IMG/VR virus record: IMGVR_UViG_3300017708_003153
Location: 1-25,887 of that record
Direction: 5' to 3' (one strand)
DNA length: 25,887 nt
Origin: a virus
Of the stretch, positions 1,754 to 23,500 are shown piece by piece. The first letter of the stretch is position 1; each line of letters starts with the position of its first letter. Under the pieces are notes generated by a model, which worked only from the letters and a program-made list of their open reading frames with translations, was not told the origin of the DNA and made no database searches. The position numbers and the translations under genes were made by a program.

Positions 1754-2662
1754 ATGTTGGGAAATATAATCAAGAACGTGGGACAGGGCATATTCAACAG
1801 AACGCTGGGTAGATTGACAGGTGCCGGTATTTCCACAGATTCGAGGATTGTACGTGCAAAGGCCAAGTGGTCTGGACGTAGCGACAAGACCGACTGGCGT
1901 GTGAGATTGCAAGTGCCGGAAGGACCGTTAACACAGTTCTTTGATTTCAACAACAATCCCTTACTGCAACCATTGGCGGAATCCCAAGGCATATTCTGGC
2001 CTCTTACTCCCACAATGCAGATAGCACATCAGGCAAGTTACAACGCAATGGATCAAGTACACAGCAATTACCCACACCAGGCCTACCAGAACTCGCAAAT
2101 TGACTCTTTGAACATCATTGGTGAATTCCCTGTACAGAATCAAGACGATGCTAGGCACTGGGTAGCCACTGTCAACTTTTTAAGGACTGCGACCAAGATG
2201 TTCTTTGGTAGCGAAGGTGGTATAGATGGACTTAAAGGTAATCCACCACCGATCCTGCATCTGTATGGTTATGGGGATCATATGTTCAACAAAGTGCCTG
2301 TGGTTATAAACTCATTCAACATAGAGTTAAGACAAGGGATAGATTACATCTCCACCAAGCAAGGGAGCAAAGGTGATCTTATGAAACAGAACTACATAGC
2401 AGAGCAACAAGGTTATGTTGACTCCGGTTTAAATTATGATCCGTACACCGGCAGACCAATAAACATGGACGCAGTGAAAAATGTTAAAGTAGTGAACAAT
2501 GAAAGTAATTACGAATCACAGACGTGGGCACCCACATTGTCAAACATATCAGTGCTAGTGACCCCTGTCTACAGCAGAGAATCCATCAAGAAGTTTTCAA
2601 TGAAGAAATTTGTAAAAGGAGAACTTAACGGTAGGGGAAGCGACGAGGTAGGATTCATCTAA
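1754..2662 (+). CDS. 48: Baseplate tail-tube cap protein, gp48-like
   Basis: This 302-aa protein has a glycine-containing helical N-terminus (1-30), then a segment with beta character (about 45-200) that includes WRVRLQVPEG and INSFNIELRQGIDYIS. The latter resembles the phrase found in tail-tube-like proteins that describes a tube-strand pair. It stands immediately before gp53, where marine T4-like phages usually carry the gene annotated gp48, the protein that caps the baseplate and initiates tube polymerisation. The assignment rests on position, size and recalled similarity rather than on a diagnostic motif, so a gp54-like tube initiator is possible. It is the first gene after the perfect late promoter. 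Its stop overlaps the next start as TAATG, with an upstream AGGTAGGA Shine-Dalgarno inside this gene. Confidence 0.68.
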   Translation: MLGNIIKNVGQGIFNRTLGRLTGAGISTDSRIVRAKAKWSGRSDKTDWRVRLQVPEGPLTQFFDFNNNPLLQPLAESQGIFWPLTPTMQIAHQASYNAMDQVHSNYPHQAYQNSQIDSLNIIGEFPVQNQDDARHWVATVNFLRTATKMFFGSEGGIDGLKGNPPPILHLYGYGDHMFNKVPVVINSFNIELRQGIDYISTKQGSKGDLMKQNYIAEQQGYVDSGLNYDPYTGRPINMDAVKNVKVVNNESNYESQTWAPTLSNISVLVTPVYSRESIKKFSMKKFVKGELNGRGSDEVGFI

Positions 2663-2961
2663 TGGCCAAGTACTCAAACACATCACCGTATTTCGATACG
2701 GGCCAGATAGCAGACTACCTAGACATCTTAAATCCCAGGACGCTAACCGCGGAAGATGACGATCAAAGTTACACCATAGAGAGGACCTACGCTTACAGGC
2801 CAGACCTATTGGCCTATGACCTTTACGGTTCACCGAGACTTTGGTGGGTTTTCGCACAGCGTAACCCAGACCAGATAGAGGATCCCATTTACGACTTCAA
2901 ACCAGGAGTTACAGTTCAACTGCCAAAGAAAGAAAACCTGCTCAAAGATTTGGGGATATAA
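2662..2961 (+). CDS. 53: Baseplate wedge protein gp53
   Basis: A 99-aa protein with the hallmark of the gp53 wedge family: YRPDLLAYDLYGSPRLWWVF at residues 46-65, followed by AQRNPDQIEDPIYDFKPG and a closing LP-rich stretch. The YFDTGQIADYLD opening (10-21) is also typical. The C-terminal half resembles a LysM-like fold, as described for gp53. In T4, gp53 joins the wedge arms to the hub during baseplate assembly. T4 gp53 is about 196 aa, so this is the short form common in marine phages. It starts within the stop codon of the gp48-like gene (TAATG) and ends 3 bp before the next start. Confidence 0.9.
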   Translation: MAKYSNTSPYFDTGQIADYLDILNPRTLTAEDDDQSYTIERTYAYRPDLLAYDLYGSPRLWWVFAQRNPDQIEDPIYDFKPGVTVQLPKKENLLKDLGI

Positions 2962-2964
2962 CCT

Positions 2965-5154
2965 ATGGTAGGCAAATATAATGGTCCTGATTTTGGGTTC
3001 GTAAAAAATGTAAAGTCAAAAGCAGACAAATACAGAAATTTAGATGAATCGGCCTCCCACGCCAGGAAGGCGAGCATAAAAAAACTTCCGCTGGAGTCAG
3101 ACCCCAACGTGTTGCACAAGTTCGCGTCTTACAACACACTATTCACGCTGTCAGCGTTGAGCACCCGTGAGATACGTAATCCCAAGCAGTTCTTCAACAG
3201 TGCACCACACGACATCATAGCAAGGAGTGGTGGCATAGGTGTAACGGCCAACTATCACCAAGGACCACCAAGCGAACAGGGACAGAGGTTTTCTGATGAA
3301 GTAAAGGCCACATTAAAAAAAAGCAAAACGTTGCGTGATGGCTTGAACAAGAGTACCTTGGAATTTCTAAAAAACAATGACCTATACTTCAACAATGTCG
3401 AGATGACATCCATACCGGGACTGAATGACAAGAGGCGTCTGACCAGTGTCACAAACATCATGATGGAGTTGGTGGAACCGTCGGGACTGACGCTGTTGGA
3501 GAAAGTGAAAGCGGCCGCGGCCAACAACGGCTTCCTGGATCACCTGGACGCACCGTACTTGCTTACTATAGAGTTCAAAGGCTTTGATAACCAGGGTCGG
3601 CCAATGCAAGAGAACACAGATTTTACAAAGAGGGTTATACCTATAAAACTAACCACAATGGACATTGACGTTAACCAGGGAGGATCCTATTACAGCATCA
3701 ATGCCATACCCTACAACGAGTTTGCTCTCACTAACAACTTCATGTATCCCAGGACCAGTGGAACACTAGCATCAAATTCACTGAATGCCACATTTGCAGA
3801 TGCGGTGCAGGATCTACAGAACATATTGAATGAACAGAACGAAGAAGAGCAGGTGAAAGGATACAACCAATTCCCAGATAGGTATGACATATCGATCAGC
3901 GAGGAGCTCAATCCCGAAGCACAACTTTCATATGAACTACTGTCTCAGGCCGGCATGACGCAGAAAAAAGAAATAGCCGCTTCTGGCGAGGAGGCATTCA
4001 CCATGGAATACATCAAGTTCAACTCTGGGGTGAGTCTTTTGAAACTGCTGGAAGAACTGATGAAGACCCACCCGGACTTTGGAGCAAAGAATTTCGAAGA
4101 TTGGGAGAAGGCGGTGTCTACTCCAGGGTCAAAAACTTTTGATCCAAACGGTGCTCTGTCCACATACTTCAAGTACTTCAGGATACGTACAGCCATCGAG
4201 CCCCAGTCCAAATTCGATGAGGTAAGACAGACCAACTCCAAGATCATCAGGATCGTGGTGGAACCGTTCTACATCAGCGCCTACAACTTGGCAACAGCGG
4301 GCATACACCAGGACAAGAACTACCAAGGGTACGTGGCCAAGGCCTACAACTACATCTTCACAGGTGATAACCTGGACATACAGGATCTCAACATCAACTA
4401 CAAGGTGGCCTACTATCAGTCAAGACTGAAGGATCTAGAGGCCACAGAAAACAGGACATTCTCACAAACCAACGACGCACCGCAATCGAAGACCAGCACA
4501 CCAGGAATCAGGAAGAGACCAGATGATATGCCAGACCATCTGAATCTTCTACCGCTCCAGAGTCATCCATCTGTATATCAGAGTTCAAAGGGCAATAGGA
4601 CAGGCAAGGCCAATGCCAGAATAGACCAGTTCTTTGATGCCATTACAAATCCACAGGCGGACATGGTGGTTGTGAACATGACGATACTGGGTGATCCCGC
4701 ATGGCTAGGGGTAAGTCAATTCGTGCCGGCAACACCGAAGAATTCCAACGGCAGTTCACAGGACAACAACATAGATTTCTTCTTGGGTGGTGCAAGGACC
4801 AACGTATGGAACCCTGACCTCAAGTGTTTCAACTACGACGTGGCGGAACCAATAACCAATCTCACGTTCAAGGTGCCACAGGACTTCGACGACAAGACCG
4901 GTGTGTACGAGATGTCATCGGCACAACAGGCTGTGTTCTCGGGTCTCTACAGGGTAACACAGGTAAAACACAGTTTCAGTAACGGCCAGTTTACACAGAA
5001 TTTAACAATGGTAAGATTCAACAACCAGGACTACAATGTAACTCCAACAACGAATTACCAAATCAGTACAAAAAATGGTGTGGTAACAGGAGTCACTAAT
5101 CCAAATCAACAGGCGCAACAGGACATAATTAGTGGAACACTAGGATCATCATAA
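2965..5154 (+). CDS. Probable baseplate hub protein (gp27-like), 729 aa
   Basis: I do not recognise this protein with certainty. It lies between gp53 and the gp5-like needle gene, where the hub partner of gp5 is expected. Visible features: a basic N-terminus; a central part with LLTIEFKGFD (near 200) and repeated SYYSINAIPYNEFAL-type strands; a Gln/Glu-rich helix; and a C-terminal strand pair, GLYRVTQVKHSFSNGQFTQN at about 660-679, followed by TMVRF. A closing Y-x-V-x-x-V-x-H ... F-x-x-x-L pattern is common to hub proteins of the gp27/gpD type, so I infer a trimeric hub that holds gp5. T4 gp27 is about 391 aa; this is nearly twice as long. The tail is Gln/Ser rich. The ATG at 2965 has a modest GGGG Shine-Dalgarno at 2952-2955. 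The stop overlaps the next start as TAATG. Confidence 0.55.
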   Translation: MVGKYNGPDFGFVKNVKSKADKYRNLDESASHARKASIKKLPLESDPNVLHKFASYNTLFTLSALSTREIRNPKQFFNSAPHDIIARSGGIGVTANYHQGPPSEQGQRFSDEVKATLKKSKTLRDGLNKSTLEFLKNNDLYFNNVEMTSIPGLNDKRRLTSVTNIMMELVEPSGLTLLEKVKAAAANNGFLDHLDAPYLLTIEFKGFDNQGRPMQENTDFTKRVIPIKLTTMDIDVNQGGSYYSINAIPYNEFALTNNFMYPRTSGTLASNSLNATFADAVQDLQNILNEQNEEEQVKGYNQFPDRYDISISEELNPEAQLSYELLSQAGMTQKKEIAASGEEAFTMEYIKFNSGVSLLKLLEELMKTHPDFGAKNFEDWEKAVSTPGSKTFDPNGALSTYFKYFRIRTAIEPQSKFDEVRQTNSKIIRIVVEPFYISAYNLATAGIHQDKNYQGYVAKAYNYIFTGDNLDIQDLNINYKVAYYQSRLKDLEATENRTFSQTNDAPQSKTSTPGIRKRPDDMPDHLNLLPLQSHPSVYQSSKGNRTGKANARIDQFFDAITNPQADMVVVNMTILGDPAWLGVSQFVPATPKNSNGSSQDNNIDFFLGGARTNVWNPDLKCFNYDVAEPITNLTFKVPQDFDDKTGVYEMSSAQQAVFSGLYRVTQVKHSFSNGQFTQNLTMVRFNNQDYNVTPTTNYQISTKNGVVTGVTNPNQQAQQDIISGTLGSS

Positions 5155-7628
5155 TGGCAGGCAAAGATTACTTAAAGGGACACGCATCAACATCCAAGGC
5201 ACCAGGTAATGACACAGACTGGTCGGGAGAAAATCCCGGTCCGTACATAGGTGTCGTCAAGAATAACATCGACCCTTTGAGGATGGGCAGACTGCAGGTA
5301 AACATACCTAGCCTCAGCAAAACCAATGATCCGATCAGCGGCAACTTGGTCACATGCGAATACCTATCACCTTTCTATGGAGCCAAGGATGCCAGACACA
5401 GCATACCGGGTTCGACGGCGTACAATGACAGCCAACACAGTTATGGCTTCTGGGCAGTACCACCAGACATAGGAACCAGGGTTTTGGTGATTTTTGCTGA
5501 AGGCAAGATGGACCAAGCGTTCTGGATAGGTTGTGTGCCAGATCCCATGACCAACCAGATGACACCGGGCATAGCATCAAGCGAACTGACGCACGACGCC
5601 TTGGACGGAACTTTCGAGGGTGCGGACGCAGGATTCCAGGATGACAAAAAATCAAAATATGGCACGACCAACGTACCATCAGGAGAAGTCAACAGGACTG
5701 TTAAAGGGTTAACACCAGATCAGTTTGCCACTTTGAGAAGACCCATACACCCATTCGCTGAGACTTTATTAAAACAGGGATTGAGTGCGGACGATGTCAG
5801 GGGTAACACCTCCAGTTCGGCACGTAGAGAAACACCCAGCCAGGTGTTTGGTATCAGCACACCAGGCAGGAAGGACACTTCGACTACACCAGTCAAGGTG
5901 GGAACAAAGGATTCGGGAGCGACAGACCATGTAACAAGAAAGACCGGACACACGTTCGTAATGGACGATGGTGCGTTAGACGGCACGAACCAACTCACAA
6001 GATTGAGGACAGCGTCTGGGCACCAGTTGCTGATGCATGACACCGAAGGTGTGGTGTACATAGCCAACGGTTCCGGTAACGCCTACATAGAGATGCAGAG
6101 GAACGGCAGGATAGATGTGTATTCAGGCTTTGGGGGAATCAACCTGAGGACCGAAGGTGACTTCAACCTGCACTCAGACTCCAACATCAACATGCACGCC
6201 AACGGACAGATAAGGATGAGCTCGGCTAAGGAGATGATACAGAGTGCTGATGCGATACTGACAATTGGAGAAAAAGGAGTGTTACAGAGTTCGCCTGCAG
6301 GTGGCATACAGAGTTACGCAAAGTCAGCCATATCATCATTCACACCGGGATCACAACTACACGGCGCTACTGGCGTATTCCATGTGCAAGGTAGCCAGGT
6401 GCATTTGAACGCACCGATGGGCAGACCAGGTTCAGGTGGAGGCGGAATAACCCAATGGGGGCCAACATGGCTTACCAAAGAAAAAACTGGTATGCAACTG
6501 CGTGAAGAAGGTGACGTAGAATTATTGCAAAAAGGCGTCAACCCGCTGAAAGCATTCACTAGGCAGACCAAGACTACTGTTCACCGATTTGTGACACACG
6601 AGCCAATGTTTAGGGCCACTGCAATAGCCGGTGACTCGATCATCCCTGATACACCCGCCAACAAGAAAAAGTGGGCGGAATTGGCCAACACACCAGGTAC
6701 TCCAGAATTCATTAATCAGAGAAACAGAAAGGGAAAGGCCCGTTTCGCCCAGTACCAGGAAGATGCAAGAGGAGAGCTGAAAGAGAAGATGGGATCAAGC
6801 ACAAATGCCATAAAGGCCAAGAAGATTTTAGAGGACTTTGCCGGTAGGTATGACGAGATATATGGCATCGCTAAAGAGGCAGGTGTGTCGTTCGACATCA
6901 AGGACAGCATATCCAACAAATTCAAAGGATTCAACGTCAACACAGATGTTAAAGATCTTACCAGCACCCTCACTTCACAGGTGATTGATAACTTTACAGG
7001 AGTAAGCAAGGAACTGTTTAAGGACAACGTGTTCGTCAACAGTGCCGGTGAACTGTTTACACTTGGCAACAAAACCATGGAAGGCATAGGTGGTGTCATG
7101 GAAGGCATAGGTGGTGGTTTCGACTTGGCAAATAGCAGTCTTAATGCTGTCAAAGGTCTGAAAGGCAATCTTTCTGCAGGCAACATTCCTGCAACCATAT
7201 CCAATCTATCCAGCATCACACAAAACTACAAGAGTATCATTGGCGGAAATTTAGTGGGAATGGATCAAATCAAGGGTCTGGCTACCAAGGCAGGACTGTT
7301 CAACGCAAGGGAGGCCGGTATAATGGGACAAGGGTTCTTGCAGAACGTAGGGGCCAATATTGGGGCAAAGTTAGGAAGCATCGGCGGGGCGGTCAAAGGG
7401 TTCTTTTCGGGTTTCAAATTTAGCGATCAGAGATTGAAAGAGGACATCAAATTAATTGGCAAGTCGCCTTCGGGCATCAATGTATATTCGTTTAAATACA
7501 AGCACACCGATGGAACATACGAGGGCGTGATGGCCCAGGAGGTTCCATGGGCGAGAAAAATGACACGCACAGGATTCTATGCTGTGGATTACAGCAAAGT
7601 AGATGTGGAATTTAGGAGATTGCATTAA
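5154..7628 (+). CDS. 5: gp5-like baseplate hub/needle protein with C-terminal S74 chaperone domain
   Basis: The 824-aa protein has an N-terminal OB-fold domain (about 27-135) that opens with GPYIGVVKNNIDPLRMGRLQ and contains PPDIGTRVLVIFAEG, as in gp5/VgrG proteins. A variable linker follows. Residues about 266-420 look like the gp5/VgrG beta-helix needle: GHTFVMDDG, then short strands such as YIEMQRNGRIDVYSG and INLRTEGDFNLHSDSNINM. No lysozyme domain is visible between OB fold and needle, unlike T4 gp5 (575 aa). About 400 further residues follow: a Lys-rich helical segment, a Gly/Ala-rich amphipathic stretch (about 640-755), and a peptidase S74-like domain beginning SDQRLK (757-762) with GVMAQEV (791-797). 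The needle punctures the outer membrane at infection. Start and stop are both TAATG overlaps with AGGA-type Shine-Dalgarno sites. Confidence 0.85.
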   Translation: MAGKDYLKGHASTSKAPGNDTDWSGENPGPYIGVVKNNIDPLRMGRLQVNIPSLSKTNDPISGNLVTCEYLSPFYGAKDARHSIPGSTAYNDSQHSYGFWAVPPDIGTRVLVIFAEGKMDQAFWIGCVPDPMTNQMTPGIASSELTHDALDGTFEGADAGFQDDKKSKYGTTNVPSGEVNRTVKGLTPDQFATLRRPIHPFAETLLKQGLSADDVRGNTSSSARRETPSQVFGISTPGRKDTSTTPVKVGTKDSGATDHVTRKTGHTFVMDDGALDGTNQLTRLRTASGHQLLMHDTEGVVYIANGSGNAYIEMQRNGRIDVYSGFGGINLRTEGDFNLHSDSNINMHANGQIRMSSAKEMIQSADAILTIGEKGVLQSSPAGGIQSYAKSAISSFTPGSQLHGATGVFHVQGSQVHLNAPMGRPGSGGGGITQWGPTWLTKEKTGMQLREEGDVELLQKGVNPLKAFTRQTKTTVHRFVTHEPMFRATAIAGDSIIPDTPANKKKWAELANTPGTPEFINQRNRKGKARFAQYQEDARGELKEKMGSSTNAIKAKKILEDFAGRYDEIYGIAKEAGVSFDIKDSISNKFKGFNVNTDVKDLTSTLTSQVIDNFTGVSKELFKDNVFVNSAGELFTLGNKTMEGIGGVMEGIGGGFDLANSSLNAVKGLKGNLSAGNIPATISNLSSITQNYKSIIGGNLVGMDQIKGLATKAGLFNAREAGIMGQGFLQNVGANIGAKLGSIGGAVKGFFSGFKFSDQRLKEDIKLIGKSPSGINVYSFKYKHTDGTYEGVMAQEVPWARKMTRTGFYAVDYSKVDVEFRRLH
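7077..7118 (+). repeat. 21-bp tandem duplication inside the gp5-like gene
   Basis: Two head-to-tail copies of a 21-bp unit (7077-7097 and 7098-7118) differ by one base near the end. They encode MEGIGGV and MEGIGGG, residues 642-655, at the start of the Gly/Ala-rich stretch. The copies are almost identical at DNA level, which suggests a recent in-frame duplication. Confidence 0.9.
7410..7625 (+). other. Peptidase S74-like intramolecular chaperone domain (within gp5-like CDS)
   Basis: The last 72 residues fit the S74 domain: a Ser-Asp start followed by RLKEDI (757-764), a YSFKYK strand, GVMAQEV (791-797) and a closing VDYSKVDVEF. In phage tail spikes this domain trimerises the preceding beta-helix and then cleaves itself off just before the Ser. 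The Ser757 and Lys762 spacing matches the Ser-Lys pair I recall from the endosialidase structure. Cleavage here is inferred. Confidence 0.82.
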
Positions 7629-8041
7629 TGGCATACGGAGATTCAGGATCAGGAGACATGTCAAACAAGTCAGTGACCTTCAAGGGTTTTAGTTCACGTG
7701 CGGAAAAGCGGAACTTCAAACTGTATGACTTTGAGGCGGTTAAGCAGGATCTAATAAACAGGTTATCAGTACGTAAGGGCGAGAGGGTGGAAAACCCGGA
7801 GTTCGGCACTATAATATATGACGCCATATTCGAGCCATTCACAGAACAACTTAAAGAGGCCATAGTCGACGATATTACAGCGAATCTTAACGCTGATCCT
7901 CGCATCAGCACACAGGAGATATTAGTGTCAGAAGCGGACAAAGGTATAGCCATACAGGCCACTATAACCTATGTTCCACTGGACATCACAGAGAAACTGA
8001 GATTCAACTTCGATGAAAACTCACTTATGCGTCTATCTTAA
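7628..8041 (+). CDS. 25: Baseplate wedge protein gp25 (GPW/gp25 family)
   Basis: This 137-aa protein matches the gp25 family along its length. The segment VRKGERVENPEFGTIIYD corresponds to the T4 TTRKGSRPFDPEFGCDLSD. ADPRI near residue 97 stands where gp25/TssE proteins carry the conserved E-P-R motif, here with Asp in place of Glu. gp25 sits in the inner wedge core with gp6 and gp53 and helps to trigger sheath polymerisation; TssE is the type VI secretion equivalent. T4 gp25 is 132 aa, so size is normal; about 15 extra Gly/Ser-rich residues lie at the N-terminus. It overlaps the gp5-like stop as TAATG, with an AGGAG Shine-Dalgarno at 7614-7618. It is followed by a 42-bp gap holding a late promoter-like element. 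Confidence 0.93.
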   Translation: MAYGDSGSGDMSNKSVTFKGFSSRAEKRNFKLYDFEAVKQDLINRLSVRKGERVENPEFGTIIYDAIFEPFTEQLKEAIVDDITANLNADPRISTQEILVSEADKGIAIQATITYVPLDITEKLRFNFDENSLMRLS

Positions 8042-8083: not shown

Positions 8084-11000
8084 ATGGCCACAACAGATAG
8101 ACAGAATAGATTATTAGTAGCGGAAGATTGGAGAAAGATCTACCAGGCTTTCCAACAGGCAGATTTCAAAAGTTACGACTTCGAGACCCTGAGAAGGACC
8201 ATGGTTGCATATCTCAAGGAGAACTACCCAGACGATTTTAACGATTTCGTTGAGAGTAGTGAGTATGTGGCACTTATAGATCTTATAGCATACATATCAC
8301 AGGCACTATCGTTCAGGGTTGACCTAAACGCCAGAGAGAATTTCCTAGAGACTGCTGAGAGAAGGAACAGCGTTTTAAGATTAGCAAGATTGATCAACTA
8401 CAATGCCAATAGGAATATACCTGCAACAGGAATGTTGAAAATAGATTCAATATCAACGACACAGGACGTGCAGGACAGCACAGGATCCAACCTCGCAAAT
8501 TCAAACATCATCTGGAATGACTCAGCGAATTCAAATTACAGAGAACAGTTTACCGCAATCCTTAACGCGGCAAACCAGACAGGACAACTGTTTGGAAATC
8601 CAAGGGAGTCAAACAAGATTGGAGGCATAAGCACAGAGGTTTACACATTAAGTTCCAATCAGTTGGATCTTCCCATATTTAAATTTTCGAAGTCGGTGGG
8701 AGGCACAAACAGATCATTTGAAATAGTACCAAGCACAATAAACGACTCAGAGAGCATATACGAATCAACACCAGTGCCGGGTACTGGACTTACATACACA
8801 TACAGATCGGATGGATCTGGGGATAGTAGCAACAACACAGGTTTTTTCTTTCTGTTCAAGCAAGGAACAATGGAGAACCAAGAGTTCACGGTAGACACAG
8901 CGATAACAAATTATGTAAAAAGTTTTGAGACAGCCAACATCAACAACACGGATGTGTGGCTATACAAGTTGGACCAGTTTGGACAACTTTCAGAATCATG
9001 GAAGAAAGTTCCATCGCTGGCAGGAAACAATGCAATTTATAATTCATTGGCCAAGGGAGAGAGAAACACTTACAACATAGTGACAAAAAACAATGATGCG
9101 ATTGACCTAGTATTTGGTGATGGCAATTTCTCCAATATTCCTCTAGGAACATTCAGGATATACTACAGGACTAGTGACAATGCCAAGTACGCCATACAGT
9201 CTGCGGACATGCAGAATATACGGTTGACTGTCCCCTACATAGATGTCAATGGTGCACAACAATCACTGTCTATGAATTTGAGCCTTAAACAAAGTGTGTA
9301 CAATTCAGCGGCAACTGAGTCAAATGATTCTATCAAGGAGAAAGCCGGCCAGGTATACTATTCTCAGAACAGGATGATCACGGCAGAGGACTACCAGGTG
9401 GTTCCACTGTCAGCGTCACAGGAAATAGTAAAAGTGAGATCTGTCAACAGAACAGCATCTGGTATAAGCAGAGCAAAAGAAATATTAGATCCAACAGGAG
9501 CGTACTCAAACGTCAACGTGTTTGCAGAGGACGGCATTTTGTACAGAGAGGAATCGTTACAGCAATTCACATTCACATTCAACAACAGGAGTGACATACA
9601 GTCAACAATAGACACATCTGTAGAAGCAAAGTTGAAAGAAGCATACGCTAGACAGTTTTATTATTTAAAGTATGCTACCAAAGGCGTCAGCACACTGTCC
9701 GCAACATGGAATTCAACGACAACTTCCACCAATACCAACACAGGTTATTTCACTTCTGGTGGTGCTTTAGTCATAGGTGATTCAGCCACATCTAATATGA
9801 AGTATGCAAAACCTGGTGCATTAGTGAAATTTACATCACCAGACACGAGAAAATTTTTAAACGGCACATTGGTGACATCGACAACAGACAACGCTGAAGA
9901 CAGGTTATGGGCCAAGATAGGTGCAGTAGTGCTTGATGGAGCCAATTCTGGTGCGGGAAATCTTGAGTCAGGAGTTGGTCCAGTTACGCTTAACAACATA
10001 GTGCCACATGGTTCGGTTATAAATGCAATTATACCTAATTTCAGTACATCATTTAGTACAACGCTGGAAGCAGAGTTAATAGACAGAATAGAAGCCTATG
10101 AGGAATTTGGATTGAGATATGACATAGATTCAGAGACATGGAAAGTGATCACATCAACCAATCTTAGCACAAGCACACTTTTTGATCTGTCCAATGCAGG
10201 GTCAACAGCGGCGATTAATTCTGATGCTAGTTGGTGGTTCAAGTTCACCAATGATGGAAACACATACACTGTCAAATACAGGAAATTAGAATACCTTTTT
10301 GAATCAGAATCACAGAACAAATTTCATTATGATGTGGATGAGAAAATTTACGACTACACGACAGGCAAGACTGTAAAGGACACAGTAAAATTATTGAAAA
10401 CTAACAGCATTGTTTCCACAGGAAACAGTGTGGGATATCCATTGACGTGGCAAGTGGTTGATGTTGTAACAGAAGCAGATGGTTTCCAGGACAATAGGAA
10501 AGTCAAGGTAGGTTTTTTTGATGCAGATGACGACGGTGTTGTTGACAATCCAGAACTGTTTGACATATTTGTTGAACCGACTTTATCGGAATCAACAAAA
10601 TTTGCATTCCAAGAAAAGTATATTTCGTATGATAACATTGAGAGGTACAGGCCATACGCGGCATCTAATTTTGTTGTTGCAGAAAAAGAAGCAGACATAA
10701 ATCTCAACACAATAGTATACACTGATGAACAATTATTTTACTTCTATGACTCAGCAGAAGACGTGATCAAGAAGTACAGTTCTACAACTAACACACTTAC
10801 TACAACTACAGATTACATAGCAAGAAGAGGCAGAAGCTCAATTGAGTTCCAGTACAAACATCACGCGGGACAGGAAACTAGGATAGATCCTAGTGTGTCA
10901 AACATTGTTGATGTATACCTATTAGAACGAACATACGATAACCTATATAGGATATGGTTGCAAGATGGTGGAATGAAACCAACAGAATCAACGGCAGATC

Positions 11001-11566
11001 AATTAAGGATCAATTACTCTGGTGCACTTAATCCTTTAAAATCGCTATCAGATCAGATCATATATCATCCGGTAAAATATAAATTACTTTTTGGTACAGG
11101 TGCAGAAGAACAACTACAGGCAACTTTCAAGGTCGTGAAAAATACAAAAACCAACGTTTCAGACGCGGTGATCAAGACGAGAGTGATAGCCGCTATCAAT
11201 GAATACTTCGCACTCGACAACTGGGACTTCGGGGACACTTTTTATTTTACAGAATTAGCCGCTTACATACACAATCAATTAGCACCAGATTTATTGACAG
11301 CAGTGATTGTGCCTAACCAGTCAGGACAGGGTTTTGGGTCCTTGTTCCAACTTGACTCGGCGGCGGACGAAATTTTCATCAGTGGGGCCACCGTTGATGA
11401 TGTGTCAATTATTACAGCACTTGGAGCCAATCAATTGGCGGCATCAGGCACTGTAGTCACATCAACATCAACTGCCACGAACAACACCACAACAGGATCA
11501 GCGGTATCAGGCTCTACTACAACAGGTTCCGGTTCAAGCACCGGCAGTAGCGGGTCAGGATACTAA
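8084..11566 (+). CDS. 6: Baseplate wedge protein gp6, enlarged
   Basis: The 1160-aa protein has both ends of gp6. The N-terminus (about 1-120) contains RLLVAEDWRKIYQAFQQADF and FRVDLNARENFLETAERRNS. A baseplate-J-like part has LVFGDGNFSNIPLGTFRIYY around 343-362. The C-terminal domain has WDFGDTFYFTELAAYIHNQL from residue 1047 and DEIFISGATVDDVSIIT, matching the T4 gp6 C-terminus. gp6 forms the inner iris of the baseplate with gp25 and gp53. T4 gp6 is 660 aa; the extra length lies mainly between about 470 and 1000, with strand-rich sequence I do not recognise. The last 39 residues (1122-1160) are a low-complexity Ser/Thr/Gly tail ending GSGY. The start follows a NATAAATA element and lacks a Shine-Dalgarno; N-terminal family similarity supports this ATG. 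The stop overlaps the next start. Confidence 0.92.
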   Translation: MATTDRQNRLLVAEDWRKIYQAFQQADFKSYDFETLRRTMVAYLKENYPDDFNDFVESSEYVALIDLIAYISQALSFRVDLNARENFLETAERRNSVLRLARLINYNANRNIPATGMLKIDSISTTQDVQDSTGSNLANSNIIWNDSANSNYREQFTAILNAANQTGQLFGNPRESNKIGGISTEVYTLSSNQLDLPIFKFSKSVGGTNRSFEIVPSTINDSESIYESTPVPGTGLTYTYRSDGSGDSSNNTGFFFLFKQGTMENQEFTVDTAITNYVKSFETANINNTDVWLYKLDQFGQLSESWKKVPSLAGNNAIYNSLAKGERNTYNIVTKNNDAIDLVFGDGNFSNIPLGTFRIYYRTSDNAKYAIQSADMQNIRLTVPYIDVNGAQQSLSMNLSLKQSVYNSAATESNDSIKEKAGQVYYSQNRMITAEDYQVVPLSASQEIVKVRSVNRTASGISRAKEILDPTGAYSNVNVFAEDGILYREESLQQFTFTFNNRSDIQSTIDTSVEAKLKEAYARQFYYLKYATKGVSTLSATWNSTTTSTNTNTGYFTSGGALVIGDSATSNMKYAKPGALVKFTSPDTRKFLNGTLVTSTTDNAEDRLWAKIGAVVLDGANSGAGNLESGVGPVTLNNIVPHGSVINAIIPNFSTSFSTTLEAELIDRIEAYEEFGLRYDIDSETWKVITSTNLSTSTLFDLSNAGSTAAINSDASWWFKFTNDGNTYTVKYRKLEYLFESESQNKFHYDVDEKIYDYTTGKTVKDTVKLLKTNSIVSTGNSVGYPLTWQVVDVVTEADGFQDNRKVKVGFFDADDDGVVDNPELFDIFVEPTLSESTKFAFQEKYISYDNIERYRPYAASNFVVAEKEADINLNTIVYTDEQLFYFYDSAEDVIKKYSSTTNTLTTTTDYIARRGRSSIEFQYKHHAGQETRIDPSVSNIVDVYLLERTYDNLYRIWLQDGGMKPTESTADQLRINYSGALNPLKSLSDQIIYHPVKYKLLFGTGAEEQLQATFKVVKNTKTNVSDAVIKTRVIAAINEYFALDNWDFGDTFYFTELAAYIHNQLAPDLLTAVIVPNQSGQGFGSLFQLDSAADEIFISGATVDDVSIITALGANQLAASGTVVTSTSTATNNTTTGSAVSGSTTTGSGSSTGSSGSGY

Positions 11567-11571
11567 TGGCA
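11556..11571 (+). promoter_or_regulatory. Overlapping stop/Shine-Dalgarno/start junction, copy 1
   Basis: CAGGATACTAATGGCA encodes the Gly-Tyr-stop end of gp6, provides an AGGA Shine-Dalgarno and opens the giant gene at the overlapping ATG (11566). The same 16 bases recur at 25148-25163. Translation of the giant is probably coupled to gp6. Confidence 0.8.
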
Positions 11572-14500
11572 GACAACCCAACAAACGCACTGACAAATAA
11601 CGAAGTCGTTAAACAAGGTACGAATGAATACAGGCGTACTGTACAACACCTACCTGCTTTCTATAGGACAGATGCCAACCAGAGATTCCTATCAAGTACA
11701 ATGGATCCCTTGGTTCAGAAAGGCTCACTGGAGAGGGTGGACGGTTACGTAGGCAGACAGGATGCCTACACCAGGTCAATCGATGACAGGTATATCGGTG
11801 CAATCAGCAGGGATAGATTTGCATATCAACTAGAACCTACGGTAACTTATACAGACAGAGACACTACATCTGCCAATCCAGAAGACCAGGTCAAATTCAC
11901 AGGAACATATGACGACTACATAAATCAAATCAAATTTCTAGGCGGAAAAGTGGCAAACCACGATAGACTTAACAAGGAGACGGTGTACAGTTGGAACCCT
12001 GCTATAGATTATGACAAATTAGTGAACTATAGGGAGTATTACTGGATGCCAGACGGTCCTGGAGCGATAGAGATAGACTCAGTTGGACCTAGTGCAGTGG
12101 TGGAATTTGCAGTTCAGAATTTGAAACAAGGTGCATACAACTTCACTCACAGGGAGAACGAAAACAATCCTATCTTGACACTGTATAGAGGTAACACATA
12201 CAAGTTTAATGTTGACGCTAAAGGCCATCCTTTCTGGATAATGACAGAGCCATACAAGAGCAAGGTTTCTGCAGATGGCTCAACATCGACAATATTCGAC
12301 ACAGGAGTAATAAACAACGGTGCGGACGAAGGAACAGTAACATTCACAGTACCCACAACAGGCGTACCGGACACTTTATATTATCAGTGCGGCAACCATG
12401 ACGCCATGTATGGTATACTGCAGATCAAAGATGCAACAAGCACTGCGACTATTAATGTTGAGGATGACATAGTTGGAACAAAAAACTACAGCCTGAGGAC
12501 TTTAGATTTATCCAACGGAATGAAGATAAAATTTACAAACTCGTTGGTGGCAACCGCATACCAAGGTAAAGAATACTACGTAGAAGGAGTTGGTGATGCA
12601 ATCACATTGACCGATGTCGAGGATCTAATGACACCAGGCAGTTATGCAACCGAGACTACTGTGCTGTATGACCAAGCAGGGTATGATTCACGGCCATATG
12701 CCAAAGCATATTACCTACCAGAGACAAAAGACTACATCACAATCAAGAGGGATTCACAAGATCAAAATGCGTGGTCGAGGTACAACAGGTGGTTCCACAG
12801 ATCGATAATAGATGAAACGGCAAAGGTTACAGGATTTACTCCCACACTGAATGAGGAAGACAGGGCCAAGAGGCCTATTATAGAATTTGATTCAGGACTT
12901 GCCTTGTACAATCACGGTACAGTGGCCAAGAGATCTGTGACATTGTATGACACAGTGACGACGGATGCATTTAGTAAAGTTTCCAAGCAGACAGGTTACA
13001 TAATCGATGGATTACCACTAGCATCTGGAATGAGAGTAGTGTTTGCGGCCGACACAGACCCCATAGTAAAGAACAAGATATACGATGTCAATTTCGTCAC
13101 AGCAGGAGACTCAACACAGGTCATAAATTTAACCGAGGCATCTGATGCCATACCATCTAACGATGACTCTATCTTCATTGAGTTTGGTACAACGAATCAG
13201 GGCAAAACTTTCCGTTATGATAGCACCACAGAAACTTTTGTTGAAGCACAACAGAAAACAGGAATAAACCAACAGCCGTTGTTTGGCATGTGGGATGATA
13301 ATCACACCTCATTCGACGATACCACTACATATCCTAATTCAACTTTTTCAGGAGCGAAAGTTTTTGCTTTTGCAACATCGGACACAGCGACCACTGACAC
13401 GGTGCTTGGAATTAAAGTCAAGTACAACACAATTAACAATGTAGGAGACATTGTTTTCGAATCTGATCACACGTCAGGGACGTTCACTTACAAGAGTGGA
13501 ACAGACACGATCACAAAGAACCTGGCAGAAGGACATCTTCATTATACCACAGGCATAAGCACACACAACTCGAGAAGTGCTTGGATTAAAAGAACAAGTG
13601 AAAGCAAACAGCGTGTCATTAGGACTTTCATAGTAAACGCAACTGAGAAACAATTATTTGCAATAGACTTTTACAAAGATTCAGCGGACCTATCTGATTT
13701 GGAAGTGTCTGTGACTGTGAACGGATCGAGGAAAACTCTAATCACAGATTATACCATAGAAACAGGAACAAAAAACAAATTCATAAAATTCAACATAGCA
13801 CTAGAAGTCAACGACCAGGTCCGGATCGCGGCACACAGCAGTGCTGATAAGATTGCCGACAAGGGCATATATGAGATACCGGAGAACCTAGCAACCAACA
13901 GCCTCAACAAACAGTTGGGCACTTTTACTTTTGGCCAGATATTGAATCATGTCAAAGATATCTTTGACAAGAACCAGGATGTAAAAGGTATAATACCCGG
14001 AGTATCAAACTTACGGGATAAACCAAATGCCAGGCTCAAGGGTGGAAGCATACATCAACATGAAGCGCCATTGGTACCTGCTATTTTTAGCACAATAGAC
14101 CAGGAGACAAACTTCTTCACAGCAACGGATTACGTAAACCAGGAGTATGAGAAATGGTACAACGCATTCCTGACACACGCAACAGGAACAGCGTATGAGG
14201 GGGTGGCCGCTGACAGGGTTGATGAAATAATCACAGCCATAACGCCAGGTAGGAACAGCACTTTCCCTTTCTACTACGAAGACATGATAGGTTGGGGAGA
14301 AAATGTTTCGACTAGATCATATACAGTGATGGGAGCATCACAGACCGACTACGCACTGAACTCACAACATGATATAACAATATTGAGCAATAGAGCGGTA
14401 TACGTTTACCTTAATGATGTTCAACTATTACTAGGAACAGACTACACATTCAGCACAACAGATGACAGTGTGTACATCAGCAAGCCATTAGCAGAAGGTG

Positions 14501-17500
14501 ACAAAATAGTAATCAAGGATTACACAGATACAACCGGCAGTTACATGCCACCATCGCCAACCAAACTTGGAATGTATCCCAAGTTTACACCTGAAGCATT
14601 CACAGACACGACTTTCATCACAGATACAGCAATGATAAGGAGGCATGATGGAAGTACAATCAAAGCATATGGTGACGAACGTGATGACCTCATAATAGAA
14701 TTAGAGAAAAGAATTTACAACAATATAAAAGTAGTATACGATCCAGCATTGATAGACATACATGATGTGTTACCAAGTGCTTTCACGTCAACGGAATACA
14801 CGCTACAGGAAATAGATAGTGTGATGAGCCCAGATTTCTATCAGTGGGCGGGACGTAACAACGTGCAATACATCAATAACACAGTTTTCTCAGAGGGATT
14901 ACCTTTCACCTACAACTACGCAAGATCAAAAGGCAGACTAATAAATGAGAACTTGCCAGGACACTGGAGAGGAATATACAAATATTTCTACGACACTGAC
15001 GTCCCTCATATTAGACCATGGGAGATGCTTGGCCATTCAGAGAAACCCAGCACGTGGGACGCTACCTATGGAACCGCTCCATACACGTCAGGCAATGATG
15101 TGTTATGGAATGCAATAGCAACAGAACCTGGAAGATACGGAAAACCATCAATCGGATCCTACCTACCAGTTGATTCATCAGGAAATTTACTAGACCCATT
15201 AGCGGCAGGACTCGTTGATAACTTTGACATACCAGGAAGGCAGAATGCTTGGAAGTTTGGAGATCAAGCACCAGCGGAGACGGCATGGAGGAGATCCAGT
15301 GCTTATCCTTTCACCGTGATGAAGACCTTGGCACTAACCAAACCGGCAAAATTCTTCTCTAATTTTTTTGATCCATCTAGGCTTACAACGAATACGGCAG
15401 GAAATCAGATATACACATCTACTGGTGTGAGAAAAACACTAAAGACAGCAAAATACCATTTAGAGACAGAAACCGACCTAAAAACAGGTATCACAACGAG
15501 ATACCAAACAGCGGGGTACCAACCGTTTGTAATAAATTATCTAACCTCTAGAAACCTAGACAGTAAGACCTTCTATTACGACAAGATGAAGAATCTGTCT
15601 GTACAGTGGTCATACAAATTATGTGCATTCACAGATAAGGACAATATAAAAATCCTGACAGACAGTGTGTCTCCAGGATCAACAGCAGGATCAAAATTCA
15701 TACCGGATGAGAATTACAAGATATTATTTAGAACATCTAACCCTGTTGAGAGTTTCCAATATTCAGGTGTGCTTATAGAGAAAAATACAGATATCAGTGA
15801 GGATGGATCAACAGTGTTGGGAGGATACAAGTTATTGGGTTACAGCACTGTCAAACCTTACTTCAACTTCAACTACCCTGTCAGAACAACAACAGCAAAG
15901 GCAGTGTCTGTTGAGGGATCTACTGTGGTCAAACAATATGCAAATTATCAAGGGACAACGCAGACCATACCATATGGATACGTGTTAAACACCATTCAAG
16001 ATGTAGCGGACTTCCTGTTTGGATATGGACATTGGTTGGAATCACAGGGCTTTCGATTCAACAAGTTCTCAAAGGAACTTAAAGAAACAATAAACTGGGA
16101 GAACGCAGTCAGAGAGTTTTTATTCTGGACAACGCAGGAGTGGACTCCTGGATCAGCAATCACAGTGTCACCTGCCGCTGACGGTTTTGAACTGAACACC
16201 AACAACAGCATTGTGGGGAAACTGAGGAACCTAGCAGGAGACTATTCATTACTAGACTCTGGAGGCAGAAAGATTGATATAGGCGAAATATCGACCAAGC
16301 GTATAGGTAAGACATTTGAGTTGGGCATTAAATCCGACACGGTGGGTCTTTATAACATAGCACTGAACACTGTGCAGAAAGAACACATACTGTTGTTCGA
16401 CAACAGCACAGTTTTTTCTGACATCATTTATGATCCATTCACTGGATTCAGACAACAGAGATTGAGACTGGTAGGATGGAAGACAGCAGGGTGGAACGGA
16501 GACTACTATGCACCAGGCTTCGTGTTCGACGCCGCGAAAGTCACGTACTGGTTGGCAAACACGGATTACAGGATAGGTGACAGCGTTGAACACCAAGGCA
16601 AGTTCTACGTGGCAAAAACCAATCACAACTCGGGTTCGACTTTTGAGACAGCCAATTGGAAGCTCAAAGACAAAAAACCAGCACCACAGTTGGTACCCAA
16701 TTTCGAGTACAAGATCGCACAGTTCAATGATTTCTATGAGTTGGAGACCAACAACTTTGACGAATCACAACAGAAGTTGGCACAAAGGCTTACAGGATAT
16801 CAGAGCAGAGACTACTTAGAAAATTTATTTGTTAATGATGTTTCTCAGTACAAGTTCTACCAGGGCTACATCAGGGAGAAGGGCACACAGAACGCCATAG
16901 ACAAGATTCTCAAGGTCAAGTATGAGGGCGAGGACATAAGTCTTGACCTGTACCCAGAATGGATGATACGTACAGGTAAATTTGGTAACACAGATTCCAT
17001 TGAGAACATACAGATTGTTCTAAAGGACAACGAGATAAAGGCAAACCCACAAAGTATAGAACTTTTAGACACATCCAATGACACGGTGGAGTACAGTAGA
17101 TCAGATTCTATATCCAAGGAGAATTTCTACTACAAGCCAGTTGAATACACAGCATCAAACACATTTCAGAGATTGGACTACACCAAGGAAGGAGTCAGCA
17201 GGGACACAGCACAAGTCTTAAAGACAGCAGGGTATCCTCAACTGCAACAGGTACAACACACTGCGTTCAACATTGATGAAATATTAAATTTAGACATGAA
17301 TGCTATCACAGCCAGTGATCTCATTTGGGTTGCCAACAAGAGCAACCGGGACTGGGACGTGTTGAGAATTACAAGTGCTGGCATAAAGATAGCAAATCTA
17401 CAGTTGATCAACAATGCCGCACAGTTGGAGATCACGTTCACAGGATCACATACATTGTCAGCAGGTACGACCACAACTGATGCCGACTACTTCGGCATAT

Positions 17501-20500
17501 CAAACAGTGAGGAAGCAACACTTAACGGTGTGTATCGTGTCAGTTCCACACCAGACCACAAGACAGTGACCATAGACTACGACGGTAACGTTGGATTCAT
17601 CCCCGCCCTAGAGGACGGTTCGACCGCTGACAGTTACGGAAACGTATACAAATTTGTATCAGTTAGATTGGCATCGATGGACAATGTCAACGATTTAATT
17701 AGTTTTGAAGAATACATAGACAAGGATGATGCCACAGAACAGCCAGGCGACAAGGTGTTTACAGACTCCGACATGTCGGGTCTATGGCGTGTATACGAAA
17801 AACACGATCCATACACTACACAACTACGGCCATCACCAGACGTGATCACGGCGGACCAGCATTTCGGACACAGGATCGTAGCACGTAATGATGGTAGGAC
17901 AGTCATTGCCTCAGCACCAGGAAAAGGACAAGGGGAGGTTCACTTCCTGTTCAGATCTATTCCAGATGCAGGCACGGAATGGCTGACTCAATTGACTGCA
18001 ACAATGTCTGACAATGATGACAACACCAGCAGATTAGGTGAGTCACTTTCAATAAGCACTGATGAAAACTTTGTGGTTGCGGGTGCACCATACGCCAACG
18101 CTGTCGGGGCCGACGGAAGCACAAGATTTATTGACTCAGGACTCATTAAGATCTACATTTGGGATCCAAGCACATTTAAGTACGGTATACTAGACACAGT
18201 GAGGGCACCGACCGATGGGTCGACAGTAAACGAGAATCTCAACTTTGGATGGGCACATAAAATATCAGAACCTGGTGCAACATCAACAAGGACTACAGCA
18301 GACAAATATATGTTTGTTTCTGCTCCAGGGCATGACAACGATCGAGGAAGAGTGTACATGTACACGTGGGGTATCGGTGCAGATGGATCAACATACGACA
18401 CCTGGACACAGGACTACACAATCGAACCACCAGCGGGCGGTCGAGGACAGAGATTTGGACACAGGATACAGGCCAACGACAACGGTGACATCATCGCTGT
18501 CAGTTCACTGGCACCAGGCAACGCGGGCAAGGTAGAGATCTTTATCAAGACGTCACAGAGCAACGACGGAAGCACACAGAATTCATTCGCACTGGCACAA
18601 ACTATCACCGGAGTGGCAAGTGACGGATCATCAATCAACACTGCTTTTGGAGAATCCATGGCGATGAGCAAGGATGGCACCACACTTATAATTGGCGCCC
18701 CGGGGGTTGATGGCACTGCACATCCTGACACAGGTGCCATTTACTACTACAAATGGAATGCGGATGATTCAACAAACACTTACACTTTGAAACAGACCAT
18801 TAATGCACCTAATACTATCTCAAATATGAAGTTTGGTACCACTCTAGGTTTGAACAACAATGGCACAAGAATAATAATAGGTGCTGAGAATTTTGCAAGT
18901 TATAAAGAAATAAAATTTGATTCTGGCGAGACCACATTTGACTTGCAGGACACTAGCATAGTGGACAGTAACGTTGAGTCCGGTGGTGCATTCACGGCGA
19001 CCATGTACAACACCAAGTTTGTGATAGACGACCGACTGACGTCTGCTAACATGTCAGCAGATGATGACTTCGGACGTGGGGTTTGTATTACTGACAACTC
19101 AGTTTACGTTGGTGCACCGAAAGATGATGCCAATACGGCAACAGACGGAAGCACCAAGATAGTCAATGACGGATCAATTGTTTGCTATGATCTCACAGTC
19201 AGTGGAAAATATGCATGGAATAACATTGTTAGTGAAACTGCACTAATGGACACGGAAAAACTTGGTAAGGTATTCGAATTCAACAACAAATCAAAACAAT
19301 TAAGAGACTACTATGACCTATACGATCCTGTTAAGGGCAGACTAATGGGCGTAGCCGACAGAGAAATCAACATAAAGACGGCTTGGGATCCGGCCACGTA
19401 CAATGTTGGAGTGAATGCAAACACAAGCACACCATGGGCAGAGAAACACATAGGTGAAGTATGGTGGGATCTGTCAACAGTCAAATGGTTATGGTACGAG
19501 CAGGATACACAGGAATATAAACACAATCACTGGGGACAGACATTCCCGGGTTCGAGCATAGACATTTACGAATGGGTAGAATCTCGATTACTGCCAAGCG
19601 AATGGAACAGGAGAGTCGAGGGCAGGGCACAGCAAACTGTAACAGGCACTGCTCTGTACGGTGATGATTCACAGTACACAGCGACACAGAGATATGATTC
19701 GAGACTAGACCAGTTCGTCAACTACTATTACTACTGGGTCAAGGGCAAGGGCACACTGCCGACCAACAGCGTGGTTGCGAGGAAAAACACTGTGGCTTAT
19801 GTGGCAAATCTTATACAGAATCCTAGTGCATTTGACTTTAAATATTACTCAGTCACAGACACAAATAAATTTTTACTTAACAATGTAAAAAATCTAGTCA
19901 ATGACGACATAGTGTTGAACATGGACATAAGGACCAACACTTTCGAAGGTGACTCCCACAGCGTGTGGAAGTTGGTTAGGGAAGGTGATACAGAATACAG
20001 GCCTGGGGTACATATAGAGACACGTTGGTGGGATTCATTGATAGGTAAGAATTCAGTGGGAGACATTGTCCCAGACCTGGATTTGCCACTCAACGAAAGA
20101 TATGGCAACAACATACGGCCAAGACAGAGTTGGTATGTGGACAGATACAATGCATTAAAAGAAATAATTGATTATGCTAACTCAGTATTAAAGAAAAATC
20201 AACTAGTTGGCCAAATCAATTTGAAAAATCTAGATTCAAAAGATCCAGAGCCCACAGCACAGAGTTTGGAGTGGGACGCCTCCGTCGACACATATGCGGA
20301 ATTGACCTACGTGAACACAGCAGACATATCGGGCACTGTGAACTACTTGGTCAAGGCAGACGAGACGGCCAACAATTTTTGGGCGATATACACCTGGGAT
20401 GGTACTGATTGGTCTAGAACCAAAATACAGACCTACAACACCTCTGCATACTGGAGTTACACAGACTGGTATGGCACAGATCCTGACATACACCAAATGA

Positions 20501-23500
20501 TCCACAGCGAAAACACTCCGATAGACAAGCAAATTAAATTCGAATACGAGTTGGACACTTTAGATCTTGCCATAGGTAAACACGTCAAGGTCACCAATGC
20601 AGACACAGGCGGCTGGAAACTGTTCATGAAGACTTCAACAGGTTGGACTAATGTTGGAACGGAGAACGGTACAATCAGATTAAGCACAAAACTTTACGAC
20701 TACAGCCAAGACGCATCAGGATTTGCCGGCCAAGACAACTTTGACGACAACTTCTTTGACCAGGAGCCAAGCATTGAGACAAGGAAAGTGTTGACCGCAT
20801 TGAGGGACGACCTGTTCATCAATGACCTAGCAGGAGAATACAACACGTTGTTCTTCACAGGACTTAGAAAAGTGTTGTCTGAACAGACGTACGTGGACTG
20901 GATGTTCAAGACATCATTCATAAATGCCAAGAACAGTGTGAGAAAACTAGACCAGAGGAAGACCTACACAACAGGAACGGATTCATGGATAGAGAGTTAC
21001 ATCAATGAGGTCAAACCATTCCACACAAAACTCCGGGAGTACAGGCTGGGTTACAACAAAACAGAGACACAGGACGGCATCTATTCAGACTTTGACAATC
21101 CAACGTTCTATGACGCTACAACAGGCAAGATCAGAAGCCTAAATGTTGATTTAGACACAGCGAAACTGACAGAGTTTCCATACCAAATGTGGTATGACTA
21201 CCACAAGAAGTACGTACAGTCAATCACAGTAACAGCAGGTGGATCAGGATATGAGGTTGCACCTACGGTGACCATACTGGGAGGTACAGAAGGATCAACA
21301 GGCCCATTCCAGATACAGGCGACCAGCTCGTCGGGTACCACAAGCGGACAGTTTGGATATTATTATCCGTTGTTCACTAGTGAGAAACAGGCCGAGATAT
21401 ATGACACACAGAATTCAGGATCAGGTACAACCAAAACTTACACATTTGATGGCTACACTGACACATTCTATGGTCCAACAACGTCAGTGAATGAATCACT
21501 GAGTGACAAGTCAGGCACGTTCAAGATGTACGTTTCACCAACTACCACGGCGGCGACTGCCACAGCAATCATACAGGGCGGCGCGGTCATTAAAATAAAT
21601 GTTACAGGCATTGGTGCAAACTACACAACGACACCTACTGTGGTGTTGTCAGGCGGTAAGACGGATGGAACAACACCGACCGACACAGCCAAGGCCTATG
21701 CTAATTTAAACAATGATCTAGTAAGGGACTTTGACACTACTATCAAGTTTGACAGAGTTTCAAGCACTTCACGTGTTGTTGATTGGGCGGCATCAACCGC
21801 ATATGCTTACAATGACTTGTTGAGATACAAAAATCAACTGTACAAAGTCACAAATGCATTCACGTCAAGTACAGACTTCGATGACAACAAAGGAAGCGTT
21901 TACAAAGTTTACGGTGACGAGACAGGACTGACAGCGGCAGACAGGACAAAGGGATTTTACACACCAGGTTCTGGCATGCCGGGCAATGAACTGGACCAGG
22001 TGATGACAGGCGTTGACTACGGTGGCACCATGGTTACGGGTCTACTATTCAACCAGGAAGCAGGTTGGGACAAATCGGGTTGGTATGACTTCCCATGGGA
22101 CAACTACGGAAATTCGAGAATCAAGGCATTCAGGGCAGACGGGTCGACATCATCATACACATTTGACACTGCGCCGACGAGCACTGAGGTTTATCAGGTA
22201 TACATCACAGCGGATGACAGCACAAGAAGAAAATTAAGTGACGTAATAAGGGGCGACGGGTCGACAGTGACATTTACTATCAGCGAAACAGCAGACGGTG
22301 ATGCTCTCGTTGAATTCATACCGTTCGACGACGACGGTGTGCTTACACCAACAGACGACAGGACAATGGATTCCATAATCAAAGGTGGCCTGTTCACTTC
22401 AGCACTGGGTCACGCACCTAGCGATATAGTGTTAGAGGGAGATGCCTTTGTCTCACCAGACACAAGTTACGCACCAGAAGAAACTGTACCAGGTCAAATT
22501 TTTGACACACTAGATATTAAGGTTTACACATCGCCAGAGTCGGGTGTGCCTTTCATAAGCGAAATGAATCATAGAGGTAACGGAAGCACTACAACATTCT
22601 CAATAGGTGATTATCCCGGGTCATTGGGATCAGTGACTGTATCTGTTGATGGTGTCGTACAGAAATTGACAACAAACTATTCGATCAATGTTGGGAACAA
22701 AACCATTACATTCACATCCGCGCCTGCAAACCACTCTGTGATATCAACCAAGGTGTTCGCAATATCAGGTGAGAACTACAGGGTGTTGAACACATTCACC
22801 GGCGACGGCAATACGACGTCATTCTTGACATCTACCAGGGGTGAGTTCAACCTAGATTCATCATCATCTGACATCTATGTCACGATAGACGGTGTACCAA
22901 CATCATCGTACACGACCAGTACCACAGCAAACACAATAACAGTGGAGTTCAGTGCGGCGCCAGTGGCAAGTTCTTACATACAGATAGCAGGTTTCAACAA
23001 ATCGGCAACAAGTTCAAGAAGTTACGCAAGTATAAGGACTCAAGAACTGACTTATGCAACAGGGACCAACAGATACACAATAACATATCCACCTGGATCT
23101 ATTGGACCATTCTCAGGTTTGACGACAGTCGAAGTAAACGGCAGGGTGTTACGAGGCCCGGACAACACTTACTATGTTGGTGACGGAAGCACTTACACCT
23201 ACGGAGTTGTATCGGGACTCAGCGACGACTCAACAGTTGATCCTGCTAAAACGATAACAGCCGCTTCGCAAGTAGAAGTATATGTAAACGGAACCAAAAA
23301 AGATTTGAACACTGATTACACAGTGGACATAGGAAACCAAAACATTGAATTCGTCACAGCGTCTGTACCAACATCAACAGATGTAATTTGTATTTCAACA
23401 TTGGTTGACCATCAGTACTTTAATGAGGGCACCGATATTATTTTGATATCAAGTGCAATCACTTCACCTTACTCGTTGTCAAACAGTGACAAGATCTCTG

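Follow-up and report, generated by a model that had tools for sequence, protein, structure and literature searches.

A cupredoxin domain with a strictly conserved, predicted type 1 copper site in a giant baseplate protein of a marine phage

Cupredoxins, among them the blue copper proteins used in photosynthesis and respiration, are well known as cellular electron carriers and as domains of enzymes. Amicyanin, a soluble electron carrier and no component of a virion, has His53, Cys92, His95 and Met98 as its ligands, and the residue that follows the first His is Asn54 (the corresponding residue is Ser86 in rusticyanin); altering this residue in amicyanin shifts the potential (PMC12723479). Rusticyanin and AcoP of Acidithiobacillus (PDB 1rcy and 7z3f) are electron carriers of acidophiles, and AcoP has a rather long ligand loop, C-x6-H-x4-M (PMC4059628). 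In three-domain nitrite reductases (PDB 2dv6, 6tfo) and in NirK (9cck), a cupredoxin domain is fused to a larger protein and belongs to an enzyme that has additional copper sites. As for phages, a metal on a host-contacting part of the particle is already the subject of the Trojan horse or Ferrojan horse hypothesis, which concerns tail fibres that bind iron via HxH motifs (PMC11705849). A cupredoxin in a phage tail is undescribed in the literature that we searched: we found no report of a cupredoxin or plastocyanin domain in phage tails, baseplates or cyanophages, and the words cupredoxin, copper and plastocyanin are absent from a survey of jumbo phages (PMC7824862).

The DNA analysed here, called the window below, is a stretch of 25,887 nt (positions 1-25,887 of the IMG/VR record IMGVR_UViG_3300017708_003153). 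It carries, on the plus strand, a T4-type baseplate operon in which the ORF of a giant protein follows gp53-, gp5-, gp25- and gp6-like genes (Table 1), and a place behind gp25 and gp6 is the one expected of T4-type baseplate wedge proteins. The giant protein scores 1124 bits against PHROG 10938 (virion structural protein), and over its N-terminal 1500 residues it is 27-33% identical to large virion proteins encoded by jumbo phages (Atu_ph07, PA5oct, SCTP-2, Munch and Vibrio 2.275). The record of the PA5oct relative is annotated ESI-MS/MS, and in both Atu_ph07 and PA5oct the preceding gene is annotated as a baseplate wedge subunit. Because a profile of the parent protein has no match in the PDB (T4 gp7 and any other solved wedge protein included), the label "baseplate wedge" rests on gene order and on homology to virion proteins.

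Several other features of this region deserve mention in their own right. The giant protein contains 14 copies of the tetrapeptide DGST (residues 237, 1028, 1413, 2017, 2183, 2217, 2273, 2334, 2527, 3525, 3564, 3873, 4182 and 4215), against 0.23 copies expected from composition; the copies differ in their codons, some being in beta-repeat contexts and others outside, and there are none in the other ORFs checked, in the fetched parts of the jumbo-phage orthologues or in the giant protein of P-TIM68. Two further stretches of the window's giant protein, at residues 1662-1691 and 2350-2393, are CBM_5_12-like (with a score slightly short of the cut-off) and made of FG-GAP repeats, and the gp5-like gene contains a perfect 21-bp tandem duplication at 7076-7116. 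As regards the host, the gene psbA is absent from eight related contigs, all of them fragments.

Table 1. Features of the window discussed in the text (positions count from the first nucleotide of the window)
Feature	Position	Strand	Basis
Baseplate wedge subunit, gp53-like by size and position	2662..2961	+	PHROG 7145
gp5-like hub/OB-domain protein with Peptidase_S74 end	5154..7628	+	Pfam PF04717, PF13884; PHROG 13211
Baseplate wedge subunit, gp25-like by size and position	7628..8041	+	PHROG 261/43
gp6-like baseplate wedge subunit	8084..11566	+	PHROG 10646 and 219; weak match to Pfam Gp6-like_1st
Giant virion protein with cupredoxin insert, 4284 aa; behind the gp6-like gene, in gp7 position	11566..24420	+	ORF; PHROG 10938
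Predicted cupredoxin domain, aa 179-290	12100..12435	+	AlphaFold2; Foldseek/VIA; PDB profile search
His221, predicted N-terminal copper ligand (GHP)	12226..12228	+	58/58 diverse copies; His of a relative aligns with pseudoazurin GHN
Pro222, after the first predicted ligand	12229..12231	+	58/58; Ala or Gly in divergent-type copies
Extra loop specific to the window lineage (aa 229-240, around PYKSKVSADGST)	12250..12285	+	58-copy alignment; low model confidence
Cys275, predicted thiolate copper ligand	12388..12390	+	Invariant; sole Cys in 52/58 copies
His278, predicted copper ligand	12397..12399	+	Invariant; CAT and CAC codons both occur
Met281, predicted axial copper ligand	12406..12408	+	Invariant

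An earlier note on this DNA had placed a cupredoxin-like domain at 12148-12432 (residues 195-289). This stretch is indeed open in the frame of the giant ORF, and its plus-strand translation holds GHPFWI and YYQCGNHDAMYG, but the true extent is slightly longer: since the relatives and the model include a first strand, the domain starts around residue 179 (12100) and ends around residue 290. The AlphaFold2 model, built on a 58-sequence alignment, is a beta-sandwich of eight strands (pLDDT 88.5, pTM 0.82), with lower confidence in the extra loop (pLDDT 61 over model residues 51-60). At E<=0.001, all 40 PDB chains matched by Foldseek (40/40) are either cupredoxins or enzymes assembled from cupredoxin domains (multicopper oxidases and nitrite reductases); AcoP (E 3.7e-5), rusticyanin, plastocyanin, pseudoazurin and azurin are among them. 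The best VIA-align match is the Hyphomicrobium nitrite reductase 2dv6 (Z 10.7, rmsd 1.9 over 89 residues), and rusticyanin, which together with AcoP is one of the best structural matches, reaches Z 8.6-9.7. The model and these matches thus give the Greek-key cupredoxin fold on which the earlier proposal depended.

A family search, which the note had recommended and which does not depend on the structure, points to the same proteins. With the window domain alone as query, phmmer returned only noise from the PDB (xylanases, for example), so that a profile was needed; searched against 177,635 PDB sequences, the profile puts NirK, plastocyanin, azurin, auracyanin and amicyanin on top, with modest E-values (1.1e-4 and up). 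In Pfam, PF25489 (At5g54830-like, a family named after a plant protein) is matched by 31 of the 58 members of the alignment; the window copy scores 24.7 bits against a curated cut-off of 27, whereas a viral relative (L161) lies above it with 29.9. By its modelled fold, the domain is a cupredoxin.

As to the copper site, the translation bears out the residues that had been proposed as the four type 1 ligands, numbering included. Cys275, His278 and Met281 are in the loop CGNHDAM, just before strand E104-110 of the model, and His221 is upstream; when a relative is aligned pairwise with known proteins, its GHP falls opposite the GHN of pseudoazurin, and its C-x2-H-x2-M loop opposite that of amicyanin. 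In 58 diverse copies, drawn from viral, bacterial and archaeal contigs, seven positions are invariant (58/58: His221, Pro222, Ile225, Tyr273, Cys275, His278 and Met281), and the four residues between the loop ligands vary freely, with 7, 9, 10 and 8 different values.

One could object that such a motif arises by chance, or that the search itself favoured copies with the Cys/His motif. A profile in which the four ligand columns had been emptied before searching still recovers the window copy (E 2.5e-35), and H-C-H-M is found in 217 of 230 distinct copies; the remaining ones are gapped in a ligand column, mostly through truncation, or belong to one divergent type, in which the reading of the first His has slipped (this His is present in the three copies displayed). 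To avoid the bias of a motif search, 80 loci were also fetched by their N-terminal flank alone; the full site is present in all complete copies (78/78), and the other two of the 80 end at a contig edge inside the domain. (The genome scan was queried with a single protein, the first alignment being too diverse for it.) The blanked profile and the flank-anchored sample together rule out a chance motif, and the second, by giving the same result, also disposes of the search bias. Free variation of the Cys and of both His would, according to the earlier note, have spoken against a copper site; these residues are on the contrary constant across the homologues of both samples. Moreover, both synonymous codons are used at His221, Cys275 (TGT/TGC) and His278 (CAT/CAC) among 80 distinct DNA copies of the window lineage, and these residues are therefore held by selection on the protein. 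A disulfide inside the domain, as the reason for the invariant Cys, is excluded by the presence of a single Cys in 52 of the 58 copies.

The conserved residues might serve another metal or simply the fold, without any copper being bound in nature. It is true that a Cys/His/His set can hold Zn, but the axial Met is present in all copies, the single Cys leaves no disulfide to invoke, and the copper family PF00127 (Copper-bind) is matched by 23 of the 58 members (best 8.7e-7); moreover, amicyanin has the same ligands with the same spacing (PMC12723479). We therefore consider this reading to be very improbable. The amicyanin loop also bears on the spacing C-x2-H-x2-M, correctly described beforehand as shorter than that of plastocyanin: the different geometry then suggested as possible is unneeded (PMC12723479), and the loop of NirK 9cck, CTLHPWM, likewise has the spacing of the phage domain. 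Sequence and model together indicate that this is most likely a real type 1 copper domain, which would be occupied by copper.

Amicyanin (PDB 1aac) shares with the phage domain the cupredoxin fold, the set His-Cys-His-Met and an identical loop, and it is matched by the profile, but sequence identity is low and the residue after the first His is Asn instead of Pro. Because Pro222 (58/58) replaces this Asn, we file the phage domain under cupredoxins and not under amicyanins. The almost invariant Pro (Ala, Gly or Pro in the divergent-type copies) is, as judged from the alignment, a real departure from the classical sites. The other known relatives also differ in one respect or another: the ligand loop of AcoP is longer than that of the phage domain, AcoP and rusticyanin serve acidophiles as electron carriers, and the nitrite reductase domains, although similarly fused to a larger protein, have no viral structural role. 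In the iron-binding tail fibres, a metal would be carried on a host-contacting part of a marine phage, as proposed here; however, the translation of the cupredoxin domain contains no HxH motif.

A bolder reading would make the domain a redox module, in which a change of copper state at the host envelope would help to trigger docking or contraction, or in which electrons would be exchanged with host surface proteins. The completeness of the type 1 ligand set, axial Met included, and the structural matches to rusticyanin and AcoP, both of which transfer electrons, are in its favour, as is the Pro in place of Asn or Ser beside the His, which would be expected to alter the potential (by extension from PMC12723479). 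On the other hand, the window shows no redox partner, and a complete site alone is no proof of electron exchange, so that we find a redox module rather improbable.

How the domain came to be in the giant protein can be read from the jumbo-phage orthologues. Residues 4-154 and 151-459 of the SCTP-2 protein align to residues 23-179 and 300-645 of the window protein with nothing between them, meaning that the domain is inserted. It is missing from the orthologues of PA5oct, SCTP-2, Munch and Vibrio 2.275, that of Atu_ph07 has another sequence at this position, and a search with the ligand-blanked profile turns up no copy in the segments fetched from these five phages. The domain is present elsewhere, in quite different proteins. 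In cyanophages and uncultured relatives it forms the C terminus of gp9/10-like connector proteins (T4_gp9_10_N; PHROG 677), with the same four ligands as the window copy, but at the end of the protein instead of inside a giant wedge protein, and in records that carry no description as a copper protein. In P-SSM2 and in three further sequences (L098, L114 and L150) it stands beside collagen repeats, and in P-SCSP2 it is near the start of a hypothetical protein; its carriers include myoviruses as well as P-SCSP2, an Autographiviridae phage. Among cultured cyanophages, P-SSM2, S-ShM2 and P-SCSP2 carry the domain, and a relaxed threshold gives matches in 236 of 50,697 phage records, nearly all of them cyanophages. 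Bacteria (Flavobacteriaceae, Bdellovibrionales and others) also have it as the only domain of small proteins, about 136-150 residues long and with a lipoprotein-like signal in front, which is one of the usual forms of a cellular cupredoxin. The domain tree recovers the window lineage as a single clade (100/100) and gives no supported separation between the other phage copies and the bacterial ones. Taken on sequence comparison, the cupredoxin domain is a mobile module reused across unrelated tail proteins.

Some further copies and neighbours may be recorded here. A divergent form of the cupredoxin domain, interrupted by a long insertion, is present at L182:2316-4307 and L087:2779-3144, in the gene that follows the gp9/10-like one, so that two adjacent baseplate genes each have a predicted copper-type site. 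In L182 it directly precedes a YHYH domain, a predicted tail-associated metal-dependent hydrolase (PMC7824862). In P-SSM2, a gene annotated piuC (L083:6086-6679) comes three genes after the cupredoxin-bearing tail-fibre-like gene. Finally, three small "beta-sandwich proteins" in BFVD, from Pithovirus and Marseillevirus records (A0A481Z6J5, A0A481YVH3 and A0A481Z7Q7), match the cupredoxin model with E 4e-8 to 3e-6, and giant viruses of eukaryotes may carry related domains.

This distribution bears on the main rival to the explanation that we favour, namely that the beta-sandwich serves structure or adhesion and that copper, or a different soft metal, does no more than stabilise it, without any redox or recognition role, in the manner of Ig-like tail decorations. 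In favour of this reading, the domain is an accessory of many different tail proteins, found beside collagen repeats and other decoration domains, and the parent protein occurs without it in other phages; but a purely structural domain would be expected to tolerate the loss of the Met or a His in some lineages, and no such loss is seen in the 58 diverse copies. A purely stabilising role seems to us possible, but unlikely.

The fold, the ligand set, its strict conservation, the insertion and the spread over tail proteins are established computationally. The explanation towards which we lean, with only slightly more confidence than doubt, is that a cupredoxin of the bacterial surface kind entered a loop of a large baseplate-arm protein in a marine myovirus and became there a copper-binding, metal-stabilised module for contact with the host. 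The domain would fold as a cupredoxin and most likely bind one copper ion through His221, Cys275, His278 and Met281. Because there is little free copper in the reducing cytoplasm, the ion would be acquired outside it, probably after lysis. The two ends of a cupredoxin, where its first strand begins and its last one finishes, are on the side opposite the metal, and insertion by both ends would for this reason turn the copper loop outward from the baseplate. Given that the module recurs in baseplate and fibre proteins, it would most likely serve to contact the host envelope, organised around the copper, and would not act as a carrier in a metabolic electron chain. It counts against this explanation that the domain would be synthesised in a copper-poor cytoplasm, unlike exported cupredoxins, and that it has a nearly invariant Pro where amicyanin has Asn and rusticyanin Ser.

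The sequences and the model suggest that the host-contacting part of some ocean viruses bears copper. That many marine phages have copper-loaded type 1 sites in their tails, with the metal taken up after lysis and helping in host recognition or in the triggering of infection, is a more general proposal, a counterpart for copper of the Trojan horse hypothesis for iron, which we put forward tentatively and with considerable doubt. The finding also offers a means of annotating a module now labelled "hypothetical" or "tail fiber". If the proposal is true, phage particles would be possible carriers of copper in a copper-poor ocean, and their adsorption would include a metal-dependent step that is open to testing in cultured cyanophages.
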